Assembly: GCA_022760735.1 (NCBI GenBank)
Contig: JAKELU010000003.1
Location: forward strand, 94,719 to 127,022
Source of the DNA: Firmicutes bacterium FC7
GTDB taxonomy: Bacteria > Bacillota > Clostridia > Tissierellales > Tissierellaceae
Length of the DNA: 32,304 nucleotides
Direction: 5' to 3'
Position numbers and translations under genes: made by a program. This document shows, in pieces, positions 21,612 through 32,304 of the stretch; position 1 is the stretch's first letter, and each line of letters opens with the position of its first letter. Below the pieces are notes generated by a model that was given only the letters and a program-made list of their open reading frames with translations, did no database searches and was not told the origin of the DNA.

Positions 21612-22605
21612 GTTTAGGGAAAAATCCACTTATATTCCTCTCGTAGGCCATATTTAGAACAAGATATGGATCTCTTAAGAGAGCTCTACCAAGGGCTACT
21701 AAATCTGCTCTTTCGTTGGAGATTATTTCCTCAATGTGGTCATAATCTTTAATTAGACCTACTGCTATGGTTGGTATATTACATTCCTTTTTAATCCTTT
21801 CAGCATGGGTTACCTGATAGCCCGGGAAGGCATTGATTCTAGCCTTAACTACACCACCACTGCTGACATGTACAATGTCTATATCATCTTTTACTAGATT
21901 AACTATTTCTACCATTTCCTCTTTGTCGATTCCACCTTCAGTATAATCATCTGCAGATACACGAAGGGATATAGGCTTATTCTCAGGCCAGACTTCCTTT
22001 ACAGCTTCTATAATTTCCTTAAGGAATCTAACTCTATTTTCTCTACTTCCGCCGTATTCATCATCTCTTTTGTTAGATAATGGGGATAAGAATTCATTAA
22101 TTAAATAACCATGAGCCCCATGTATTTCAATCATATCGAATCCTGCTTCATTAGCACGTCTAGCTGCATCTTTAAATTGAGACACTATTTCTTTAATTCC
22201 ATCCTTACTAAGTTCTCTTGGTACCCTATATTCATCACTAAATCGTAGAGGAGATGGTGCGACTATAAATTCATCATTAGATTCACATTTTCTACCTGCA
22301 TGTGCTAGTTGGATACCTATCTTCGTACCATAAGATTTCACTTGGTCAACAATTTTTTTTAGACCTTTAATATGACTATCTGACCAAATTCCTAAATCAT
22401 TACTGCTAATTCGTCCATTAGGTATAACACCAGTAGCTTCAACTATAATTAGCCCTACTCCACCAACCGCTCTAGTAACGTAGTGGGTTATGTGAAAGTT
22501 CTTTACCATGCCATCTTCATCTGCTGAGTACATACACATTGGAGGCATGACAATTCTGTTTTTTAATTCCATATCCTTTAATTTAAAATTGGTTAAACTC
22601 TTCAA
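21589..22605 (-). CDS. Old Yellow Enzyme, YqjM/NamA-like NAD(P)H-dependent ene-reductase
   Basis: This 338-residue FMN TIM-barrel enzyme reduces activated C=C bonds, for example in unsaturated carbonyls. It matches the YqjM subfamily: MPPMCMYSA with Cys24 and Tyr26 near the flavin, IQLAHAGRK with Gln99 and His102, IEIHGAHGYLINEFLSP with substrate-binding His162 and His165 and Tyr167, Arg216 in LRVSADDY, and the late FMN phosphate loop VGLIKDYDHIEE plus LVALGRALLRDP. Length fits YqjM (338). There is no C-terminal Fe-S/FAD extension as in 2,4-dienoyl-CoA reductase. The start is TTG at 22605 after AAGGAG; no suitable ATG precedes it. Two palindromes lie just upstream. Confidence 0.93.
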   Translation of the reverse strand: MKSLTNFKLKDMELKNRIVMPPMCMYSADEDGMVKNFHITHYVTRAVGGVGLIIVEATGVIPNGRISSNDLGIWSDSHIKGLKKIVDQVKSYGTKIGIQLAHAGRKCESNDEFIVAPSPLRFSDEYRVPRELSKDGIKEIVSQFKDAARRANEAGFDMIEIHGAHGYLINEFLSPLSNKRDDEYGGSRENRVRFLKEIIEAVKEVWPENKPISLRVSADDYTEGGIDKEEMVEIVNLVKDDIDIVHVSSGGVVKARINAFPGYQVTHAERIKKECNIPTIAVGLIKDYDHIEEIISNERADLVALGRALLRDPYLVLNMAYERNISGFFPKQYERGFF

Positions 22606-22619
22606 GCTATCACTCTCCT

Positions 22620-22667
22620 TAAGTATATACTTACCACTTAATAAATAAAATTATCACTAATTTTATT
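22620..22667 (-). promoter_or_regulatory. two palindromes upstream of the ene-reductase gene
   Basis: TAAGTATATACTTA (22620-22633) is a perfect 14-bp palindrome beside the ribosome binding site. AATAAAATTA-TCAC-TAATTTTATT (22644-22667) is a perfect 10-bp inverted repeat. Either could be an operator for a MarR/TetR/HxlR-type regulator, but both are AT-only or nearly so. Confidence 0.35.
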
Positions 22668-22846
22668 AACATTTTGAGCAATAACTAGGAAAGTAGTACA
22701 GATTTATACCTCAACAGATTAAGAACTAAGCTAATAAAATAAATTACCAATTAACCTAAAAAATATGGAAAATCTTACAAAAAAAGAAGGGAAACTATAG
22801 GACTATGCCGAATGTTAATATTACTAAATGACAGTGGAGGTTAGCC

Positions 22847-23575
22847 ATGCAAATAAAAATTAGTTTTGAAAGTAAAACGGATATTATATTACCTATTCAT
22901 TATAATCACATACTACAAGCCTTTATCTATAATAACATAGATGAAAAGTTAGCTTCATTTCTACATAATAAAGGTTTTGTAAATAACGGGAGATCATTTA
23001 AATTATTTACTTTCTCTAGAATCTTAAATAGGGGTAAAAGAGTAAATGATAATTTTAACTTTGGGAATAAAATTAATATAATTGTGTCTTCGCCAATTGA
23101 AGACTTTTGCAGCTCAATTGCAAATTACATGTTACAAAGGGAAGACTTACACATGGGAAAAAACAATGTAAAAGTAAACGAAATACAGATATTAAATTAT
23201 GACCTAGATAGTGAAGAAATAGTAGTCGAGGCACTCTCTCCTATTGTTGTATATAGTACTTTTTTTAGACCAGATAAAAGTAAATATACTTGCTATTTTA
23301 CACCTTTAGAATCTGACTTTTCTAGAATAGTATCAGAGAACCTAATAAGAAAATACAACGCTCTAAACAATACAAATCTACCACTTGATTCTAGTATAAA
23401 AATAATTCCAAATGGACCGTATAAGCAAAATATAACATATTATAAAGATATTTTGATAAAGGGGGTATCGGGGAAATTTATAATTAGAGGTAATAAGGAA
23501 CTACTTCAGCTAGGAGTAGATGCTGGATTAGGAAGCAAAAACAGCCAAGGATTTGGATGTGTAAGAGTATTATAG
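22847..23575 (+). CDS. cas6: CRISPR endoribonuclease Cas6 (subtype I-B)
   Basis: This 242-residue protein cuts the repeat within the pre-crRNA to give mature crRNAs. It has tandem ferredoxin-like folds with the C-terminal glycine-rich loop DAGLGSKNSQGFGCVRVL (225-242) that defines the family. The N-terminal IHYNHILQAFIY holds His18 and His21, one of which is a likely catalytic residue. Expected cleavage in the 3' part of the repeat would leave the 8-nt handle ATTGAAAC. It is the first cas gene, with a GTGGAGG ribosome binding site. The next gene follows after 15 bp. Confidence 0.94.
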   Translation: MQIKISFESKTDIILPIHYNHILQAFIYNNIDEKLASFLHNKGFVNNGRSFKLFTFSRILNRGKRVNDNFNFGNKINIIVSSPIEDFCSSIANYMLQREDLHMGKNNVKVNEIQILNYDLDSEEIVVEALSPIVVYSTFFRPDKSKYTCYFTPLESDFSRIVSENLIRKYNALNNTNLPLDSSIKIIPNGPYKQNITYYKDILIKGVSGKFIIRGNKELLQLGVDAGLGSKNSQGFGCVRVL

Positions 23576-23590
23576 GAAGGAGGGGAAAGT

Positions 23591-25528
23591 ATGATAGAGG
23601 GCCTAATACAAATTGGAAGTGCATTGCCTTCAGATGATGGTTCTTTGTCTAATTTAATTCAAGTAGTAGAACCAATTAGAAAAAATAAGCAGCTAAATGT
23701 TTTAAAAATAAACTTTGATTTGGATAATGATAGGTTAATATTTGATGTAAATGAGGAAATGGATATTAATACATCAAAGAAATACAATTATATAGGATCT
23801 GCTAGTGGGCCAAATTCTCCACAATGGTATGTAACATCTACTATGATTAATTATCATATAACAGAAACTATATTTAATTTATCTAATCAGGATTTTAGTG
23901 AAGAATTAAATAAAAAGATTAAAGCTGTTTTAGAACAGTTCTATTATTTAGTTGAAGAATCCATGCCAAATAAATATAAATATGCATTAAATATTGAAAA
24001 GTTCAATATATCAAATATTGATATGAGAAATATATATGAACAAGTAAAATTAGAAAAGACAAAAGATGGAGCTAAACCAAAAGCTGGGGATATTGGCAAA
24101 GGTATCATTGCTAAATTAAGCAAAGAAATAGAAAATTATTTGATAGATAATTATGACATGAAGTTAAGCGATTTTGGGTTGTTTACAATCCTTATTAATG
24201 GTGAGATTATAGCGCAAAACAAAGAGTATATAGACAGGGTAGTTGAATCTACAGAACCTAGTATAAAGGTTTCCAAAACTGATAAGGGAACATGTAGTAT
24301 TTGTGCTAGTAGAGAAGATGTAACAATGGATATGACAAAGACAAAAATAAAACTATATACTACAAATCAAATTATATTTGCCAATAATTTAGATAAGAAT
24401 AATTATTATAAAAACATGCAGATGTGCAAATCTTGTATGACTAAGTATTTGGCAGGAGAGAATTATTTACAAAACAGACTTGCAGTAAAACTTTCAACAT
24501 TTGATGTGTATATAATTCCTCAATTTGTACATGGGGAACCACTGAATAGTGTTGAGTTGGATCGAGTTACTGATAAAATTGTGTATTCCTTCAATACTGT
24601 AAAGTCATTTGAAGGTATTGGTGAGATGAGAAATGAAATTTATAATAAAATAGCTTTCAGTAACTCTAATAGCTACTTTCTTTTAAACTTTTTGTTCTAC
24701 AAGAGTGTACAAGCTTCAACTAAGGTGCAAGCATTTATTAAAGATGTTAATCCTTCAATATTTGAGAAAATGGCTGAAGCAACTTTAAAATCAAATAAAG
24801 ATATGAGAAAAGCCATAGGTTCAAGCTTAAAAACATATATAGATTTACAAAGTGTCTATATAATGAATCCTATTAGACTTTCAAAGGGAAGTCCAACTCA
24901 ATACAGAAGTATACTACAGACATATGATTCTATATTGACTGGGAAAAAATTAAATAAGAGAAATGTGATCAAGAATATTGTAGAGTGTACAAAAATAATT
25001 TGGTTTAACAAAGAGTCTTATAATATAAATCCAGAAAAAACAAGTTTAGAGTTCTATATTATTAGATCAAATATGTATTTAAAATTTTTAGAATATATGG
25101 GATGTTTGAAGGGGGGAGAAGGTATGTCTGTTGAAGGATTGAGAGTAAAGGATGAGTTAAAAAATTATATTGAAAGCATGTCTTATACTGAGGAGCAAGC
25201 AGCTATGTTCTTATTGGGGTGTTTAATTGGTGAAATAGGGAATGTTCAGTATAAGAGGAATCCAATTGATGGAAATAAGCCTATACTAAATAAATTAAAC
25301 TTTAATGGTATTGATAAAAATAAAATTATTAGGCTTACAAAGGATGTATTCAATAAGTTAAATCAAGAAAAGATTAGACATTTTAATGAAACAACTTTCT
25401 TTGAAATGAAAAGACTTTTAGATAAAAACCTAGAAAGCTGGAGTTTAAACAAGGAAGATAATTTATTCTATATATTATCAGGCTATTCATTCGTAACTAC
25501 AATACCAATGTTAAAGGAGGATAATTAA
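23591..25528 (+). CDS. cas8b: Cascade large subunit Cas8b (Csh1 family)
   Basis: This 645-residue protein is the large subunit of the I-B surveillance complex, expected to read the PAM and recruit Cas3. Position in the operon and a treble-clef type zinc site (Cys235/Cys238 in CSIC and Cys279/Cys282 in CKSC) fit Cas8b1/Csh1. N-terminal MIEGLIQIGSALPSDD is also typical. The start is ATG behind AAGGAGGGG. The C-terminal 134 residues can be translated separately from an internal ATG at 25124 (see Cas11b). The stop overlaps the cas7 start by one base. Cas8 sequences diverge fast, so subfamily is assigned largely from its Csh2-type neighbour. Confidence 0.9.
   Translation: MIEGLIQIGSALPSDDGSLSNLIQVVEPIRKNKQLNVLKINFDLDNDRLIFDVNEEMDINTSKKYNYIGSASGPNSPQWYVTSTMINYHITETIFNLSNQDFSEELNKKIKAVLEQFYYLVEESMPNKYKYALNIEKFNISNIDMRNIYEQVKLEKTKDGAKPKAGDIGKGIIAKLSKEIENYLIDNYDMKLSDFGLFTILINGEIIAQNKEYIDRVVESTEPSIKVSKTDKGTCSICASREDVTMDMTKTKIKLYTTNQIIFANNLDKNNYYKNMQMCKSCMTKYLAGENYLQNRLAVKLSTFDVYIIPQFVHGEPLNSVELDRVTDKIVYSFNTVKSFEGIGEMRNEIYNKIAFSNSNSYFLLNFLFYKSVQASTKVQAFIKDVNPSIFEKMAEATLKSNKDMRKAIGSSLKTYIDLQSVYIMNPIRLSKGSPTQYRSILQTYDSILTGKKLNKRNVIKNIVECTKIIWFNKESYNINPEKTSLEFYIIRSNMYLKFLEYMGCLKGGEGMSVEGLRVKDELKNYIESMSYTEEQAAMFLLGCLIGEIGNVQYKRNPIDGNKPILNKLNFNGIDKNKIIRLTKDVFNKLNQEKIRHFNETTFFEMKRLLDKNLESWSLNKEDNLFYILSGYSFVTTIPMLKEDN
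25124..25528 (+). CDS. cas11b: predicted small subunit Cas11b, from an internal start inside cas8b
   Basis: An ATG at codon 512 of cas8b, in frame, is preceded by AAGGGGGGAGAAGGT, a ribosome binding site as strong as any in the operon. The product would be 134 residues, mostly helical (KDELKNYIESMSYTEEQAAM; IIRLTKDVFNKLNQEK), fitting the small-subunit fold. Independent translation of Cas11 from within cas8 has been shown for several type I systems, including I-B. Here it is inferred from the site, frame, length and helical content. Confidence 0.7.
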   Translation: MSVEGLRVKDELKNYIESMSYTEEQAAMFLLGCLIGEIGNVQYKRNPIDGNKPILNKLNFNGIDKNKIIRLTKDVFNKLNQEKIRHFNETTFFEMKRLLDKNLESWSLNKEDNLFYILSGYSFVTTIPMLKEDN

Positions 25529-26406
25529 TGAATAATAGTGAAATATTATATCTTTATGATGCAAAGTTGACTAATCCTAATGGAGATCCAGATGAAGAAA
25601 ACAGACCAAGAATGGATTATGAAAGAGAAATTAATCTTGTTTCAGATTTAAGATTGAAGAGATACATAAGAGATTATTTGTATCAAGAAGGGCATGATAT
25701 TTTTGTTAGAAGGGTAGATGATAAGCCAGTAACCGCAGATAAGAGAATTAAAGAACTAAAAGATTCAAGCGAGAAATGGATATTAGAAAATTGGATAGAT
25801 GTGAGGATGTTTGGTGCTACAATGACTGTAAAAGGTGATACGAAAACATATATAGGACCTGTTCAGTTTAATTGGGGATATTCTCTAAATAAGGTAGAGT
25901 TGTTAGAGGCTAGTATTACATCGCATTTTTCAGCTAACGAAAAAGCTACTCAAGGAACTATAGGTAAGGATTATAGAGTTAAGTATTCTCTCATTGCTTT
26001 TTCAGGCGTAATTAGTGGAAGAAGAGCAGAAAAAACTCAGCTTAAAAACGAAGATGTCCTATTGTTAGATAATGCTATGAAAAATGCAATTCCGAATCTC
26101 GCCACAAGAAGTAAAATAGGTCAATATCCAAGACTATATTTGAGAGTAGAATACAGGGATAACCAAACTATCTTAGGAGATTTGAGAGACTATATTGATT
26201 TAAAAGAAAAGTTCGAAAGTATAAGAGACATTAATGAATTGACATTAGAAATAGATAAGTTAGTAAATCTATTAAATGAAAATAAAGAAAAAATAAATAA
26301 AATCTTTTATTATATTGATTCAAGTTTGAAATTAATTATGAAAGGTAATATTGTAGCTAATATTCAGGAGGTAATTCAAAATATACCATTTGAAGAGATT
26401 GTGTAG
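25528..26406 (+). CDS. cas7: Cascade backbone protein Cas7 (Csh2 family)
   Basis: This 292-residue RRM-fold protein polymerises along the crRNA spacer to form the backbone. Csh2 signatures are clear: YLYDAKLTNPNGDPDEENRP at the N-terminus, LVSDLRLKRYIRDYL, DVRMFGATMTV and a central TSHFSANEKATQGTIGKDYR block. These mark subtype I-B (Hmari type) rather than I-A (Csa2) or I-C (Csd2). The start ATG overlaps the cas8b stop (TAATG), with AAAGGAGG just upstream. The cas5 start follows within 10 bp. Confidence 0.95.
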   Translation: MNNSEILYLYDAKLTNPNGDPDEENRPRMDYEREINLVSDLRLKRYIRDYLYQEGHDIFVRRVDDKPVTADKRIKELKDSSEKWILENWIDVRMFGATMTVKGDTKTYIGPVQFNWGYSLNKVELLEASITSHFSANEKATQGTIGKDYRVKYSLIAFSGVISGRRAEKTQLKNEDVLLLDNAMKNAIPNLATRSKIGQYPRLYLRVEYRDNQTILGDLRDYIDLKEKFESIRDINELTLEIDKLVNLLNENKEKINKIFYYIDSSLKLIMKGNIVANIQEVIQNIPFEEIV

Positions 26407-26415
26407 GTGATAATT

Positions 26416-27132
26416 ATGAAAGTTATTGTTTTTGACGTAAAAGGTAAATTTGCCCACTTTAGAAAGTTCTATACGAATTCATCTTCTTTAACTTATGGTG
26501 TTCCTCCTAGAACTACAATTGCAGGTATGATAGCTGCCATTATGGGATTTGAAAGAGATAGTTATTATGAAATCTTTAGTTCAGATAAACTAAAAATAGG
26601 AGTTAAAAAATTAACTCCCACGAAAAAAATACTTCAAACCCTAAATTATATTAGAGCAACGTCAATGTCTGAGTTAATAACTCCTAAAGACCACACTCAA
26701 GTTCCTTTTGAAATACTTGTTGGGGATACTGAACTATCATTTAGGATATACGTTACACACAATAATTTAGACTTGTTAAATGAATTAGAAGAAAGAATTA
26801 GAAAAAACCAACTAGCATATCCACCATACTTAGGAAGTGCAAACTTTGGTTGCTCTATTAAATATATAGATTATCTAGAGGGAGTTTATGAAGAAAGTAA
26901 AGACTATATTAAGATAGACTCAGTAATAAGGTCAGAAGATATTGCAGAAGTTGATATCTCTAACTATTCCGGTAAATTGATGAAAGAAAGAATGCCTATA
27001 GATTTTTATGAAGGAAGGCTAATAAAAAAAGTAGATACTTATATATATGATGACGATGGTAAACCACTTAATATTAAAGTTAGGAATAAGTTTATTAAAT
27101 TAGAAAATGGAGAGAATATTATATTTTTATAG
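26416..27132 (+). CDS. cas5: Cascade subunit Cas5 (subtype I-B, Cas5h)
   Basis: This 238-residue RAMP protein caps the 5' handle of the crRNA. N-terminal VIVFDVKGKFAHFRKFY and the following YGVPPRTTIAGMIAAIMG are the Cas5 signature, and a late AYPPYLGSANFGCSIKYID segment is typical of Cas5h. I choose the ATG at 26416, five bases after AGGTGAT, over the GTG at 26407 that abuts the cas7 stop. No endonuclease role is expected since Cas6 is present. The gene ends 10 bp before the cas3 start. Confidence 0.93.
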   Translation: MKVIVFDVKGKFAHFRKFYTNSSSLTYGVPPRTTIAGMIAAIMGFERDSYYEIFSSDKLKIGVKKLTPTKKILQTLNYIRATSMSELITPKDHTQVPFEILVGDTELSFRIYVTHNNLDLLNELEERIRKNQLAYPPYLGSANFGCSIKYIDYLEGVYEESKDYIKIDSVIRSEDIAEVDISNYSGKLMKERMPIDFYEGRLIKKVDTYIYDDDGKPLNIKVRNKFIKLENGENIIFL

Positions 27133-27142
27133 GGGGGGTACA

Positions 27143-29458
27143 ATGCGCTTTTATTCGCACCCTGATAGAACATTGCTAAATCATTTAATTGAAGTTAGGG
27201 ATATAAACCTATATAAAGTTCCAGATGACTTAAGAAGGGCTTTTGAAATTGCAGCCTTATGCCATGATTTTGGAAAATATTCTACATTTTTTCAGAATTA
27301 TTTATTGAATAATAAGAAAAAATCAGATTTAGGAAATCATGGATTTATATCAGCTATATTTGGCGCTTATGTAGCAATAAAAGAATTTGGGGAAGATTCC
27401 TATCTTCCCTTAATGATTTATAATGTTATAATCCATCATCATGGTAATTTAGAATGTTTCTCTCATAACCTGCCATCTAAGATTGGAAATGTTAAGATAA
27501 CGGATTATTCAGTTAACTTACTAGATAAAATTGAGATTGGAATAAAACAGATTGATGACATCAATAAAAATAAGAATTACATAATTGAGGAATTAAAGCA
27601 AATTGGACTAGGAAATATGTTTGAGTTATTTTTAAATGAAGATGACGTAATAAATAAGACTCTACAAAACTTAAAAAGAATAGAATATAAGCTATCATTA
27701 GCACAAGAAAGGGATAAACATTATTTTATTCATCAAACTATTTATTCGGCATTAATTTCAGCTGATAAGATAAGTGCTTCAGGGATTAAGTATGATATCC
27801 CATTGTTTTGTGGCTTTAATGAAATAGAAGAAATTAAAAGGCAAAAATTTGAGAATAATTTAAGTTCAATAAATCAAATAAGAGATGAAATATTTAGATG
27901 TGTTTTAGATAATTTGACTAGAAATTTTTATAAAAGTAAGATATTTTCAATTACTGCACCAACTGGAACAGGGAAAACATACGCTGGATTTTACGCATCT
28001 GTAAAATTAAAAGAACTATTAGGACTAAAAGGTAAAATAATTTATTCTTTACCTTTTACATCAATAATTGAACAAAATTATTCATCTATTGTAGATATAT
28101 TAAAGTGCTTAGAGTCATTTGATAAAAACATTAGTAGATATATAATTAAACATCACAACTTATCTAAAACTGACTATATAACAGATTATCATGATTATAC
28201 TAAACTACAATCTGAACTATTAATTGAGAATTGGGAAAGTGGAATTGTAGTTACTACTTTTGTACAACTATTTGAAACAGCTATAGGAAGTAAGAATAAA
28301 ATGCTCAAAAAGTTTCTAGCTTTTAATGATTCAATAATATTGATTGATGAAATTCAAAGTATAGACATTAAATATTACAAACTTATAGAATATGTTTTAG
28401 AAAAATTATGTGAATATACAAATTGTAGGATAATAATTATGACAGCCACAAAGCCAATTATTCTCCAAAATAGTATAGAACTTTTGCCAGAAAATAAAAG
28501 ATATTTTGAGAAGTTTAACAGAACTAGATTGATTCCAAAATTAGATAAAGTTTATATCAATGATTTTATTGATGATTTTATTGAAAACATAGAAGAAAAG
28601 TCATATATGATAGTTTGTAATACAATTAATCAGTCTATTGAAGTTTTTAATTCTTTAAAACATTTAGAAAGGGATACATATTATTTATCTACTAATGTAC
28701 TCCCTATTAAAAGAAAAAAGATAATTGAAGAAGTCAGTGATAGATTAAAGAAAAACGATAATATAATATTGATTTCTACTCAGGTAGTAGAAGCTGGGGT
28801 TGATCTAGATTTTGATGAGGTAATAAGAGATTTAGCGCCATTTGATTCTATTATACAGTGTGCAGGAAGGTGTAATAGAAATTATATAAAAGGTCAGGGA
28901 AATGTAAAAATTGTTAATATGGTTAATGAAAATGGGGAATCCTACGGAAAATATATATATGGGAGCACACTATTAAATATAACTAGAGATTTACTAAAGG
29001 AAATAGAATATATAGATGAAAGAAACTATTTTGATTTAATAAATAGATATTATAACATAATAAATAATAGTAAATCAAAAGATGAATCTAATAAGTTTAT
29101 CAAATCTTTAAATGATATGGATTTTAACGGTTCTGATTGGGCAATAAATAGGTTTTCATTAATTGAAGATAATCCAACTTATATTGATGTATTATTCATT
29201 TATGACGAAATAGCTGAGAGGGCATATGAAGAATACAAACAGATATTAGGCATAAAGAACTTTGAGGAAAAGAAGGAAAGATATTTAGAAATTGGACAAA
29301 CTTTAAAAAGTTATACGTTGTCAATCCCTATAAAATATTGCCGCAGTTTTGTTCATGAGAATGGTATGTTGATTTTACCAAGAGAGGGTATAAGTCAATA
29401 CTATGATGAGGATACTGGATTCGTTAGAGAAAGTTCAGACACATATATGATTTTTTAG
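27143..29458 (+). CDS. cas3: CRISPR nuclease-helicase Cas3
   Basis: This 771-residue protein unwinds and degrades target DNA recruited by Cascade. The N-terminal HD nuclease has His14, the His41-Asp42 pair in LCHDFGK and the HHH run at 98-100. The SF2 helicase has motif I APTGTGKT (272-279), motif II DEIQ (402-405), motif III MTATKP (433-438), motif V STQVVEAGVDLDF (545-557) and motif VI QCAGRCNRN (572-580). All catalytic motifs look intact, so HD and helicase are fused and probably active. I choose ATG at 27143 after AGGGGGGG; the ATG at 27107 lies inside cas5 without a ribosome binding site. Confidence 0.95.
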   Translation: MRFYSHPDRTLLNHLIEVRDINLYKVPDDLRRAFEIAALCHDFGKYSTFFQNYLLNNKKKSDLGNHGFISAIFGAYVAIKEFGEDSYLPLMIYNVIIHHHGNLECFSHNLPSKIGNVKITDYSVNLLDKIEIGIKQIDDINKNKNYIIEELKQIGLGNMFELFLNEDDVINKTLQNLKRIEYKLSLAQERDKHYFIHQTIYSALISADKISASGIKYDIPLFCGFNEIEEIKRQKFENNLSSINQIRDEIFRCVLDNLTRNFYKSKIFSITAPTGTGKTYAGFYASVKLKELLGLKGKIIYSLPFTSIIEQNYSSIVDILKCLESFDKNISRYIIKHHNLSKTDYITDYHDYTKLQSELLIENWESGIVVTTFVQLFETAIGSKNKMLKKFLAFNDSIILIDEIQSIDIKYYKLIEYVLEKLCEYTNCRIIIMTATKPIILQNSIELLPENKRYFEKFNRTRLIPKLDKVYINDFIDDFIENIEEKSYMIVCNTINQSIEVFNSLKHLERDTYYLSTNVLPIKRKKIIEEVSDRLKKNDNIILISTQVVEAGVDLDFDEVIRDLAPFDSIIQCAGRCNRNYIKGQGNVKIVNMVNENGESYGKYIYGSTLLNITRDLLKEIEYIDERNYFDLINRYYNIINNSKSKDESNKFIKSLNDMDFNGSDWAINRFSLIEDNPTYIDVLFIYDEIAERAYEEYKQILGIKNFEEKKERYLEIGQTLKSYTLSIPIKYCRSFVHENGMLILPREGISQYYDEDTGFVRESSDTYMIF

Positions 29459-29468
29459 AGGTGATTAT

Positions 29469-29969
29469 GTGGATGAGGATAAAATTAATGGTACCTTAAT
29501 GTGGTATTACAAAATATGTAAAAGAGAAGTATGGTTGATGAGTAAAAACATAATACCTGATCAAAAAGATACTAATATTGATATTGGTAGGTTTATTCAT
29601 GAAATGTCATATAGTAGAAACAAAAAGGAAATTGAATTTGGAAATGTTAAATTTGATGTTTTATTAAATACAAAGGATCAGCTTGTTATTGGGGAAACTA
29701 AGAAATCATCAAAATTTCAAGAGGCATCTAGATTGCAGTTGCTCTATTATCTAAGAGAGTTGAAAAATGCAAATATAGATGCAAAGGGTATTCTTTTATA
29801 TCCGGAGGAAAAGAAAAGGGTAGAGGTAGAGCTCAATGAGGAAAATATCATTGAATTAGAAAAGGCTGAGGATGAAATCGTAGAAATTATGAATAAAGAA
29901 GTTCCGCCACCGGTCGCTAAGAATAAGTTCTGTAGAAGTTGTGGATATAGAGAATATTGCTTTGCATAA
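29469..29969 (+). CDS. cas4: CRISPR adaptation exonuclease Cas4
   Basis: This 166-residue RecB-like nuclease trims prespacers and helps choose PAM and orientation during spacer acquisition. The [4Fe-4S] ligands are Cys17 (ICKREVW) and Cys155, Cys158 and Cys164 (FCRSCGYREYCFA). Nuclease residues are His44 (FIHEM), Asp63, Glu76 and Lys78 (GETKKS). INGTLMWYYKICKREVW is the typical N-terminus. The start is GTG at 29469 after AGAGGTGAT; the nearby ATG at 29467 is in another frame. It lies between cas3 and cas1, the usual I-B position. Confidence 0.94.
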   Translation: MDEDKINGTLMWYYKICKREVWLMSKNIIPDQKDTNIDIGRFIHEMSYSRNKKEIEFGNVKFDVLLNTKDQLVIGETKKSSKFQEASRLQLLYYLRELKNANIDAKGILLYPEEKKRVEVELNEENIIELEKAEDEIVEIMNKEVPPPVAKNKFCRSCGYREYCFA

Positions 29970-29981
29970 GGGGGTAAAGAC

Positions 29982-30974
29982 TTGAAAAGAGATATCTATG
30001 TATTTAATGATGGAGAGATGAGAAGAAAAGATAATACCCTATTATTTGAAACTCAATTTGGGAAGCAGTATATACCTGTTGAGGAGGTTAATAACATATG
30101 GTTTTTTGGTGAAATTACGATTAATAAATCATTTTTAGACTTTGTATCTCAAAAGGAGATATGTTTACATTTCTTTAACTATTATGGATATTATACAGGT
30201 AGCTTTTATCCTAGGGAGCATCTTAATTCAGGGTATGTTATATTAAAGCAAGCTGAACATTATCTTGATTACTCTAAGAGAATGATACTTGCTAGGACGA
30301 TAATTGAAACAGCTGCAAAAAATATATTAGTAATACTCAAGTATTATAACAGCAGAGGGATAGATTTAGAAACTACTATAAATAGTATATCTCAGAAAAT
30401 TATTTACATGGAACAAGTGGGAAACATTCAGCAATTAATGGCATTAGAGGGTAATATTAGGGATGAATATTATAACTGTTTTAATTTTATTATAAAAAAT
30501 CCTGACTTTGAATTTACCAAAAGGAGCAAAAGACCACCTCTTGATAATATTAATTCACTGATTAGTTTTGGAAATGCATTAATGTATACGACAATATTAG
30601 GTGAAATATACCAGACTCAGCTTGATCCCAGAATAGGATACCTCCATTCCACAAATGAAAGAAGATTTACACTGAATTTAGATATAGCTGAGATATTTAA
30701 ACCAATTGTTGTTGATAGGGCAATTTTTTCATTACTTAACCGGGGTGTTATAACTACAAAAGATTTTGAAAAAGATTTTAATGGAATTTTGATATCAGAA
30801 AAAGGTAAGAAGAAATTTTTGGAAGAATACAATAAGAAACTAGAAACGGTTATTAAACATCCAAATCTGAACATTAATGTAAGTTATAAAAGGCTTATAA
30901 GACTTGAGCTTTATAAAATACAAAAACATATAACTGAAGACGAAAGATATGAGGGTTTTGTTGCGGGGTGGTAA
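29982..30974 (+). CDS. cas1: CRISPR integrase Cas1 (subtype I-B)
   Basis: This 330-residue metal-dependent integrase inserts new spacers at the leader end together with Cas2. The active-site residues are Glu156 (ALEGNIRDEYY), His222 (RIGYLHS) and Glu237 (LDIAEIFKPIVVD). The N-terminal beta domain starts KRDIYVFNDGEMRRKDNTL. Full-length I-B Cas1 proteins are about 330 residues, so it is intact. The start is TTG at 29982, eight bases after GGGGG; no ATG fits. The cas2 start lies two bases after its stop. Confidence 0.95.
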   Translation: MKRDIYVFNDGEMRRKDNTLLFETQFGKQYIPVEEVNNIWFFGEITINKSFLDFVSQKEICLHFFNYYGYYTGSFYPREHLNSGYVILKQAEHYLDYSKRMILARTIIETAAKNILVILKYYNSRGIDLETTINSISQKIIYMEQVGNIQQLMALEGNIRDEYYNCFNFIIKNPDFEFTKRSKRPPLDNINSLISFGNALMYTTILGEIYQTQLDPRIGYLHSTNERRFTLNLDIAEIFKPIVVDRAIFSLLNRGVITTKDFEKDFNGILISEKGKKKFLEEYNKKLETVIKHPNLNINVSYKRLIRLELYKIQKHITEDERYEGFVAGW

Positions 30975-30975
30975 G

Positions 30976-31239
30976 ATGTTTGTGATATTGTTTTATGATT
31001 TTGGAGAAAAAAGAGTTTCAAAGGCTTTAAAAACTTGCAGAAAATATTTAACTTGGGTACAGAATTCTGTATTTGAAGGGGAAATAACAGAAGGAAACTT
31101 AAAGAAGTTGAAACATGAACTATCGATGAAAATGGATAAAGATGTTGATTCGCTTGTAATATATACTTTTGCTAATATGAAATATTCTACAAGAGAAGTA
31201 ATAGGGGTTGAAAAGAATCCTCAATCTTTATTTCTTTGA
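30976..31239 (+). CDS. cas2: CRISPR adaptation protein Cas2
   Basis: This 87-residue ferredoxin-fold protein dimerises to bridge two Cas1 dimers. It has the classic start MFVILFYDFGEKRVSKALKT with Asp8 at the conserved position after beta-1, a WVQNSVFEGEIT strand, and a SLVIYTFANMKYSTREVIG end. I choose ATG at 30976 after GGGGTGG; the ATG at 30949 within cas1 would add nine uncharacteristic residues. It is the last cas gene; the leader begins right after it. Confidence 0.95.
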   Translation: MFVILFYDFGEKRVSKALKTCRKYLTWVQNSVFEGEITEGNLKKLKHELSMKMDKDVDSLVIYTFANMKYSTREVIGVEKNPQSLFL

Positions 31240-31383: not shown

Positions 31384-32304
31384 GTACCTAGAATACCTAT
31401 AAGGAATTGAAACTTCAAGGAAATAACAAATATATTATATATGCCGTATTGTACCTAGAATACCTATAAGGAATTGAAACATTTCTTCTGCTGGTATTCC
31501 ATAACGGTTAAAATATTGAGTACCTAGAATACCTATAAGGAATTGAAACCCGAGGTACTCAAAGCCATGGCCGAGGAGAGAGACGAGTACCTAGAATACC
31601 TATAAGGAATTGAAACTGTAGAGAAAGGCATGGGAAGATATTTCCTAAAGATGTACCTAGAATACCTATAAGGAATTGAAACCAGCAATCATAATAACGG
31701 CAGCAGCCATAACAATACTGTACCTAGAATACCTATAAGGAATTGAAACTTTCTTTTAGCAATCAAAGGTATACGTCTATCTTCGTACCTAGAATACCTA
31801 TAAGGAATTGAAACAGCCTGTGATAGTTCCATCTTCGGCAATAGTAATTGGTACCTAGAATACCTATAAGGAATTGAAACTCATGGAGCACTAATGCTAC
31901 AGCTGCTGAATATGCGTACCTAGAATACCTATAAGGAATTGAAACGCGAATTCAAGAACCTCTTCATCAGTAAGCTTGTCTAGTACCTAGAATACCTATA
32001 AGGAATTGAAACTATAATCAAGTACAAGAAAAATTAGGGGAAAAGAAAATGTACCTAGAATACCTATAAGGAATTGAAACTTTAGATCCCATTTTAAAAA
32101 GCTTTCTTTATATCCGTACCTAGAATACCTATAAGGAATTGAAACAGAGCAGGTCAGGACATTTCACAGGTTCAGACAAGTACCTAGAATACCTATAAGG
32201 AATTGAAACTTGCTTAACATACCTAGACTATGCCTAATCTTTTCAGTACCTAGAATACCTATAAGGAATTGAAACAAGTTAGATCCTAAAAATACTGAAT
32301 TGCT
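31384..32304 (+). CRISPR. CRISPR array, 14 repeats, continues past the window
   Basis: Fourteen identical 30-nt repeats begin GTACCTAGAATACC and end GGAATTGAAAC. They start at 31384, 31451, 31520, 31587, 31653, 31720, 31785, 31851, 31916, 31983, 32051, 32116, 32180 and 32246. The 13 complete spacers are 34-39 nt (37, 39, 37, 36, 37, 35, 36, 35, 37, 38, 35, 34, 36) and a 29-nt partial spacer runs to the window end. All spacers differ. The ATTGAAAC end is the usual 8-nt crRNA handle of I-B/III-type repeats. Perfect repeat identity and an intact adaptation module suggest a live array. Confidence 0.99.

Follow-up and report, generated by a model that had tools for sequence, protein, structure and literature searches.

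In this study, we analyzed a window of 32,304 nucleotides from Firmicutes bacterium FC7, whose type I-B cas8b gene very probably has a second, internal in-frame start that is real and used and that gives a predicted small subunit, Cas11b. This degree of confidence attaches to the two-start explanation as a whole. The gene carries a strong Shine-Dalgarno (SD) sequence and a start codon at the head of its last domain, the family conserves this place as an initiation site, the model of the predicted product matches the fold of known small subunits, and relatives encode the same domain as a gene of its own.

A complete type I-B operon lies on the forward strand of the window, in the order cas6, cas8b, cas7, cas5, cas3, cas4, cas1 and cas2, followed by a CRISPR array. 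The cas6 gene (Cas6b; 22847–23575) matches TIGR01877 (2.7e-38) and the PADLOC Cas6b profile (2.2e-79). The cas8b gene (23591–25528) encodes a large subunit of the TM1802/Csh1 family (645 aa, 74.5 kDa) that matches TIGR02556 (5.9e-54) and TIGR02591 (1.6e-43), both above the cut-off, as well as PADLOC Cas8b (3e-125) and PF09484 (1.9e-106), and it encloses the predicted cas11b in frame. It is followed by cas7 (Csh2; 25528–26406; TIGR02590, 1.2e-71), cas5b (26407–27132; TIGR02592, 2.8e-35), the HD nuclease-helicase gene cas3 (27107–29458; TIGR01587, 8.4e-44, and TIGR01596, 8.7e-25), and the adaptation genes cas4 (29469–29969), cas1 (29982–30974) and cas2 (30949–31239), which together span 29469–31239 and match TIGR00372, TIGR03641 and TIGR01573. 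The array (31384–32299) has the 30-nt repeat GTACCTAGAATACCTATAAGGAATTGAAAC, of which 14 copies are seen, and reaches the window end. The Cas8b, Cas7 and Cas5 of the I-B models, together with Cas3, Cas6 and the array, place the system in type I-B with a TM1802/Csh1-type Cas8b. Neighboring cas genes overlap or are separated by gaps of at most 15 bases, which leaves no room for a further gene in the operon. A profile of the Cas11b domain run against the whole genome found a single copy, the one in cas8b, in a search that covered this small-subunit family. Within that scope, both results agree with the earlier note, made from the sequence alone, in which the I-B set was said to lack any other small subunit.

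The internal start is the ATG at 25124–25126, in-frame codon 512 of the 645 codons of cas8b, directly after the SD sequence AAGGGGGGAGAAGGT (25109–25123). The predicted gene, cas11b (25124–25528, forward strand), has its stop codon in common with cas8b and encodes 134 residues with a mass of 15.72 kDa and a predicted pI of 6.6. All duplex energies were computed with an anti-SD sequence that we take from general knowledge, and the pairing would fall at about 25108–25116, roughly 8 nt 5′ of the start. The energies were −12.8 kcal/mol for the cas8b start, −11.7 for both the internal start and cas7, −11.5 for cas1 and −10.0 for cas6, with weaker values for cas4 (−7.1) and cas5 (−2.9). The longest-ORF starts of cas3 (27107) and cas2 (30949) have almost no SD (0 and −1.4 kcal/mol, respectively); the cas2 profile match starts at residue 10, so the true cas2 start may lie downstream of 30949. 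The coordinates and the energy thus bear out the in-frame ATG behind a strong SD, and the 134-residue product, that the earlier note had pointed out. Its further statement that this ribosome-binding site (RBS) is as strong as any in the operon slightly overstates the case, as the site ranks joint second with cas7 among nine starts and the cas8b start is stronger.

Among the 37 in-frame internal ATG, GTG and TTG codons of cas8b, codon 512 is the sole one at −11.7 kcal/mol or below, the runner-up being ATG 539 with −7.8. Over all forward frames between 22847 and 31239, four of 424 such codons reach −11.7 kcal/mol: the starts of cas8b and cas7, the internal start, and an ATG at 30098 that lies out of frame within cas1. 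An SD and ATG of this strength therefore arise by chance about once within this operon, and the weight of the argument rests on the in-frame location at the right place and, above all, on conservation. The RNA around the internal start has no particularly weak fold (−5.8 kcal/mol; mean, −4.4), and 73% of codon positions fold as weakly as this region or more weakly.

Homologues were collected from five named loci and by searching overlapping draws of 28, 249, 391, 398 and 63 genomes. The resulting 83 loci (L001–L083) contained 79 distinct best-ORF sequences after L010, L011, L014 and L015 were dropped as duplicates. A phmmer score of at least 190 retained 53 of them, and removal of L079, which is truncated before the site, left a close set of 52. 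This set contains the window gene and several groups of near-identical rows (L001/L005, L061–L063, L067/L068 and L035/L036). Two imperfect rows, L064 with its C-terminal end cut and L004 with a broken N-terminal frame, were retained because the site is intact. In L004 (Thermoanaerobacter wiegelii Rt8.B1), cas8b is broken over two reading frames near residue 185–193, with the Cas11b part, the SD and a TTG intact. A distant set of 37 loci, defined by a match with E ≤ 1e-5 in an ORF of at least 250 codons, contained 30 distinct C-termini after L026, L028, L040, L044, L047, L050 and L095 were collapsed; five of these have no Cas11 domain and were treated separately as split forms, so that 25 full-length homologues remained. 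The SD thresholds were set post hoc, at −5 kcal/mol for the column analysis and at −7 kcal/mol with ±5 codons for a rule chosen after inspection of the distant set, and the controls share that rule. The rows are related by descent, so their counts are not independent events, and the column controls and the tree correct for this only in part. No relatives were found in phages (tblastn) or in viral contigs (protein and profile searches), and tblastn against plasmids gave two distant records that were left out of the analysis.

The SD before codon 512 is conserved beyond what the encoded protein needs. Over the 52 close homologues, its mean energy is −10.75 kcal/mol, compared with −7.70 in synonymous codon shuffles, and none of 1000 joint shuffles was as strong as observed (z −10.3); 79 control columns (60 shuffles each) gave a mean z of −0.1 and a lowest value of −3.6. 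The SD is stronger than its own shuffled mean in 45 genes and no stronger in seven. When the window gene is taken by itself, the result is not significant: 34% of its synonymous shuffles were equally strong, because Lys-Gly-Gly-Glu is rich in purines whatever the codons. The peptide before the site varies among relatives (KGGEG, KEGKV, EEGRS, ERGES and EVKRG) while the SD persists. Of the 52 close homologues, 51 have an NTG codon with an SD of −7 kcal/mol or below no more than five codons from the aligned position, as do all 25 full-length distant ones; under the same rule, 310 of 28,920 and 198 of 13,264 control positions qualify, respectively (1.1–1.5%).

The start codon follows a distinct pattern. 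The residue aligned with codon 512 in the close set is Met in 23 genes, Leu in 18, Val in 7, Gly in 3 and Ile in 1. The codon is ATG, GTG or TTG in 48 of the 52, all 48 with an SD energy of −5 kcal/mol or below, and no other column of the alignment compares with it except that of the true cas8b start (43 of 51). Leu in this column is encoded by TTG in 18 of 18 cases, compared with 557 of 3632 (15%) in other columns, and Val by GTG in seven of seven, compared with 357 of 1647 (22%). Ten or more Leu occur in 134 columns, of which this one alone is 100% TTG; the true start follows with 75% and the next column with 42%. L007, which is 71% identical to the window gene, has the same 15-base purine run followed by TTG (Leu), and all nine relatives at 53–57% identity have Leu at this codon. 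In L005, from [Clostridium] ultunense, the start codon is TTG. Met is thus not kept in the closest relatives, yet Leu is always TTG and Val always GTG, and the conserved trait is therefore the capacity to serve as a start codon. The earlier note had proposed to align related genes to see whether the purine-rich site and the Met are conserved more than the flanking codons, and had regarded a lack of conservation of either in close relatives as refuting the start. The purine-rich site is indeed kept family-wide, whereas the Met gives way to TTG-encoded Leu in the closest relatives, and the refuting condition, read literally for the Met, would have misled.

On a tree built from the residues before 480, with the site excluded, codon 512 changed at least 10 times, and the boundary between start-capable and other codons was crossed twice. 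The first crossing is a three-row clade (L073–L075) in which the SD, AAGGAGGTG or GGGGAGGTG, and a TTG lie four codons downstream, and these rows were therefore rejected as true exceptions. The second is L069 (G677:C11), a true exception with ATT at the codon and no site at −6 kcal/mol or below within 60 codons, which may use a weaker internal site or none. In L069, cas7 comes directly after cas8b, and a separate cas11 gene is absent from the junction.

We also predicted the structure of the Cas11b segment. The AlphaFold2 model of residues 512–645, computed with five relatives, has six helices (pLDDT 80.8, pTM 0.80), and its eight best Foldseek matches in the PDB are type I-C Cascade chains, none of them at E ≤ 0.001; among these type I-C entries, 9jhc (‘RacrIC1-Cascade IC1’) is counted by its title. 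In VIA-align, run on 251 chains picked by Foldseek, type I-C Cascade chains take the first 11 of the 50 places listed, with Z scores of 6.8–8.2 (the next entry has 4.0), although Z below about 13 in helical bundles can mean a common arrangement. These 11 align over 95–104 residues with an rmsd of 2.9–4.1 and 10–16% identity. Read from chain length, four are free small subunits (112–117 residues) and seven are Cas8c (385–582 residues). In the free chains, residue 2 or 3 is the first to align and pairs with residue 10 of the model, which places the internal start about 7–8 residues before the equivalent point. The earlier note's description of the product as helical and of small-subunit size thus fits the model, and the structure comparison that it had suggested led to type I-C small-subunit chains and the C-terminal region of Cas8c. 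A small all-helical domain with a Cas11 fold is accordingly predicted, with the qualification that helical bundles easily score middling Z values. Solved Cas11b chains, including that of Synechocystis, and Cse2-type chains were not among the structural matches listed, which excludes nothing. Sequence searches of the PDB with Cas8b and with the Cas11 domain profile gave unrelated, insignificant matches only and no CRISPR chain, and the prediction for full-length Cas8b was poor (pLDDT 45, pTM 0.33) and was left out of the analysis.

A separate cas11b gene is present in 15 genomes of the same phylum (L088, L090, L092/L097, L093, L094 and L098–L107), where a shortened cas8b is directly followed by a gene of about 140 aa. 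Five distant cas8b genes stop just before the junction (475–528 codons, stop to stop). Base by base, an ORF of 137–147 aa abuts the cas8b stop in two of these and overlaps it by 4 nt in three, and in all five an SD lies within the last codons of cas8b. The three ORFs scanned match the end of the 602-position Pfam profile Cas_TM1802 (positions 491 or 492 through 599; E values between 2e-13 and 1.3e-16) and also PADLOC PDLC01518 (134 positions), which is labelled Cas8b large subunit. The alignment of the five split ORFs with the fused domain by hhalign gave E 8.8e-6 and a probability of 83%. A profile of these five rows matched 12 of 398 genomes, 11 in separate frames of 137–206 codons and one in a 543-codon frame. 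All 11 separate frames have a short cas8b directly upstream, its length being partial where the locus edge cuts it, as in several cases. The total of 15 is the first five plus these 11, less G635, which is in both sets. At least one genome, G970, has the split form plus a fused cas8b elsewhere. In a 92-row tree, which is unrooted, made by a quick method and flagged with a long-branch warning on other rows, the 15 split forms are separated from all other rows by a single branch.

The fused genes have no stop at the junction, but 76 of these 77 genes retain an SD and a codon able to start translation. We lean towards regarding the internal and the intergenic RBS as one junction in two states in this Cas8b branch, so that in the fused proteins the short linker before Cas11 would be the translation of a ribosome-binding site. 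Both layouts would be explained by a single fusion in which the former start was retained, or by a single fission at an internal start already present. In the literature searched, mostly outside subscription papers, we found no description of the split cas8b/cas11b clade; PADLOC already profiles the separate gene.

The purine run and the ATG might instead be a by-product of a linker rich in Lys, Gly and Glu before a Met, with no internal initiation. The shuffles of the window gene alone and the equally strong site at 30098 are what such a by-product would give. Peptide composition alone as the cause of the site was rejected, however, on the family-wide synonymous shuffles, none of which reached the observed mean; moreover, the SD stays while the preceding peptide varies, and protein constraint cannot explain why Leu is solely TTG and Val solely GTG in the column. 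We therefore consider this explanation highly improbable. The same low standing is given to the idea that proteolysis or an internal promoter gives rise to a short C-terminal product of Cas8b. In Clostridium thermocellum, a short piece of Cas8b was initially taken for a sign of fragmentation (Richter 2017, cited in PMC11899642), and promoter-like patterns do exist inside cas8b; a promoter and terminator scan of 22600–25600 counted 25 such patterns against 20.5 (sd 4.8) expected, which is no clear excess. Neither route requires a conserved SD and start codon at a fixed place.

Ribosomes could also bind or start at the site for another purpose, such as a pause for folding or the feeding of cas7, with a short protein that is not a Cascade subunit. 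The TAA stop common to cas8b and cas11b overlaps the cas7 ATG by one base (25526–25530), and internal starts would therefore also feed ribosomes into cas7. However, pausing alone needs no start codon, the predicted short protein spans an entire domain, the best matches of its model are type I-C small-subunit chains, and the 15 relatives with the split arrangement encode this domain separately. This alternative is unlikely, albeit somewhat less so than the two above.

We propose instead that one cas8b mRNA is read from two translation starts. Initiation at 23591 would yield the 645-residue large subunit, and the internal SD would recruit ribosomes to the ATG at 25124 to synthesize Cas11b, whose sequence equals that of the C-terminal 134 residues of Cas8b. 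If the complex is built like the type I complexes of known structure, Cas8b would fill one Cascade position, and its C-terminal domain together with two or three free Cas11b would line the belly, which would hold the displaced DNA strand on target binding. Internal starts could also help to set the subunit ratio through cas7; the distance to cas7 varies widely over the 52 relatives in a crude count.

McBride et al. reportedly found independent small-subunit translation in types I-B, I-C and I-D in 2020 (Mol. Cell) and described it as widespread. The site in the window is a well-supported new instance of this arrangement. What the present comparison adds is the pattern of a Met, Leu or Val codon that is always NTG, the large extent of the Cas8b branch that shows it, and a sister arrangement in which the two genes are naturally split. 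Five publications report that Cas11 is translated from a start within the gene of the large subunit in the same three types (PMC13199841, PMC11899642, PMC11096372, PMC7684278 and PMC10212523), in line with the earlier note's statement that it is established for several type I systems. The 2025 classification lists several type I subtypes in which large and small subunits are fused (PMC12669027).

The closest case is the type I-B1 Cas8b1/Cas11 of Thermotoga maritima (TM1802), which belongs to the same Cas8b family (TIGR02556/PF09484, named after TM1802); TIGR02556 matched in two control genomes, that of T. maritima among them. For this system, a 15.1 kDa Cas11 was predicted from an internal cas8b1 start that was non-functional in Escherichia coli, which the authors presume to be due to a suboptimal RBS, a suboptimal start codon or both; in that host, separate provision of Cas11 was necessary, and Cas8b1 did not co-purify (PMC13199841). 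The window cas8b, in contrast, has a strong SD and an ATG. The type I-B Cascade of Synechocystis sp. PCC 6714 is described as containing one Cas8b, seven Cas7 and three Cas11b, the last made from an internal RBS in cas8b and equal to the Cas8b C-terminus (PMC11096372, PDB 8H67). Unlike that of the window, its large subunit belongs to the Cmx8/Myxan branch. In Haloferax volcanii, an internal in-frame cas8b start was reported from mass spectrometry and an M545A mutant, and Cas11b was needed for efficient interference; the protein differs from the predicted one in being archaeal, in its size of 28.9 kDa and in its non-standard SD (PMC11899642). Desulfovibrio vulgaris Cas11c, which is attributed to an internal RBS in cas8c (PMC7684278; PDB 7kha and 8dex), is of another subtype, type I-C, whose chains are the best structural matches of our model.

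An internal Cas11 start is easily overlooked in annotation, and, judging by the T. maritima case, a Cascade of this kind without Cas11 may fail to assemble properly. For TM1802-type Cas8b, annotation should look for an SD and an NTG codon, often TTG, at the Cas8/Cas11 junction, or for a separate gene of about 140 aa after a short cas8b. When such systems are transferred to other hosts, cas11b should be supplied as a gene of its own. The naturally split clade offers a ready-made control for examining what purpose separate translation serves.
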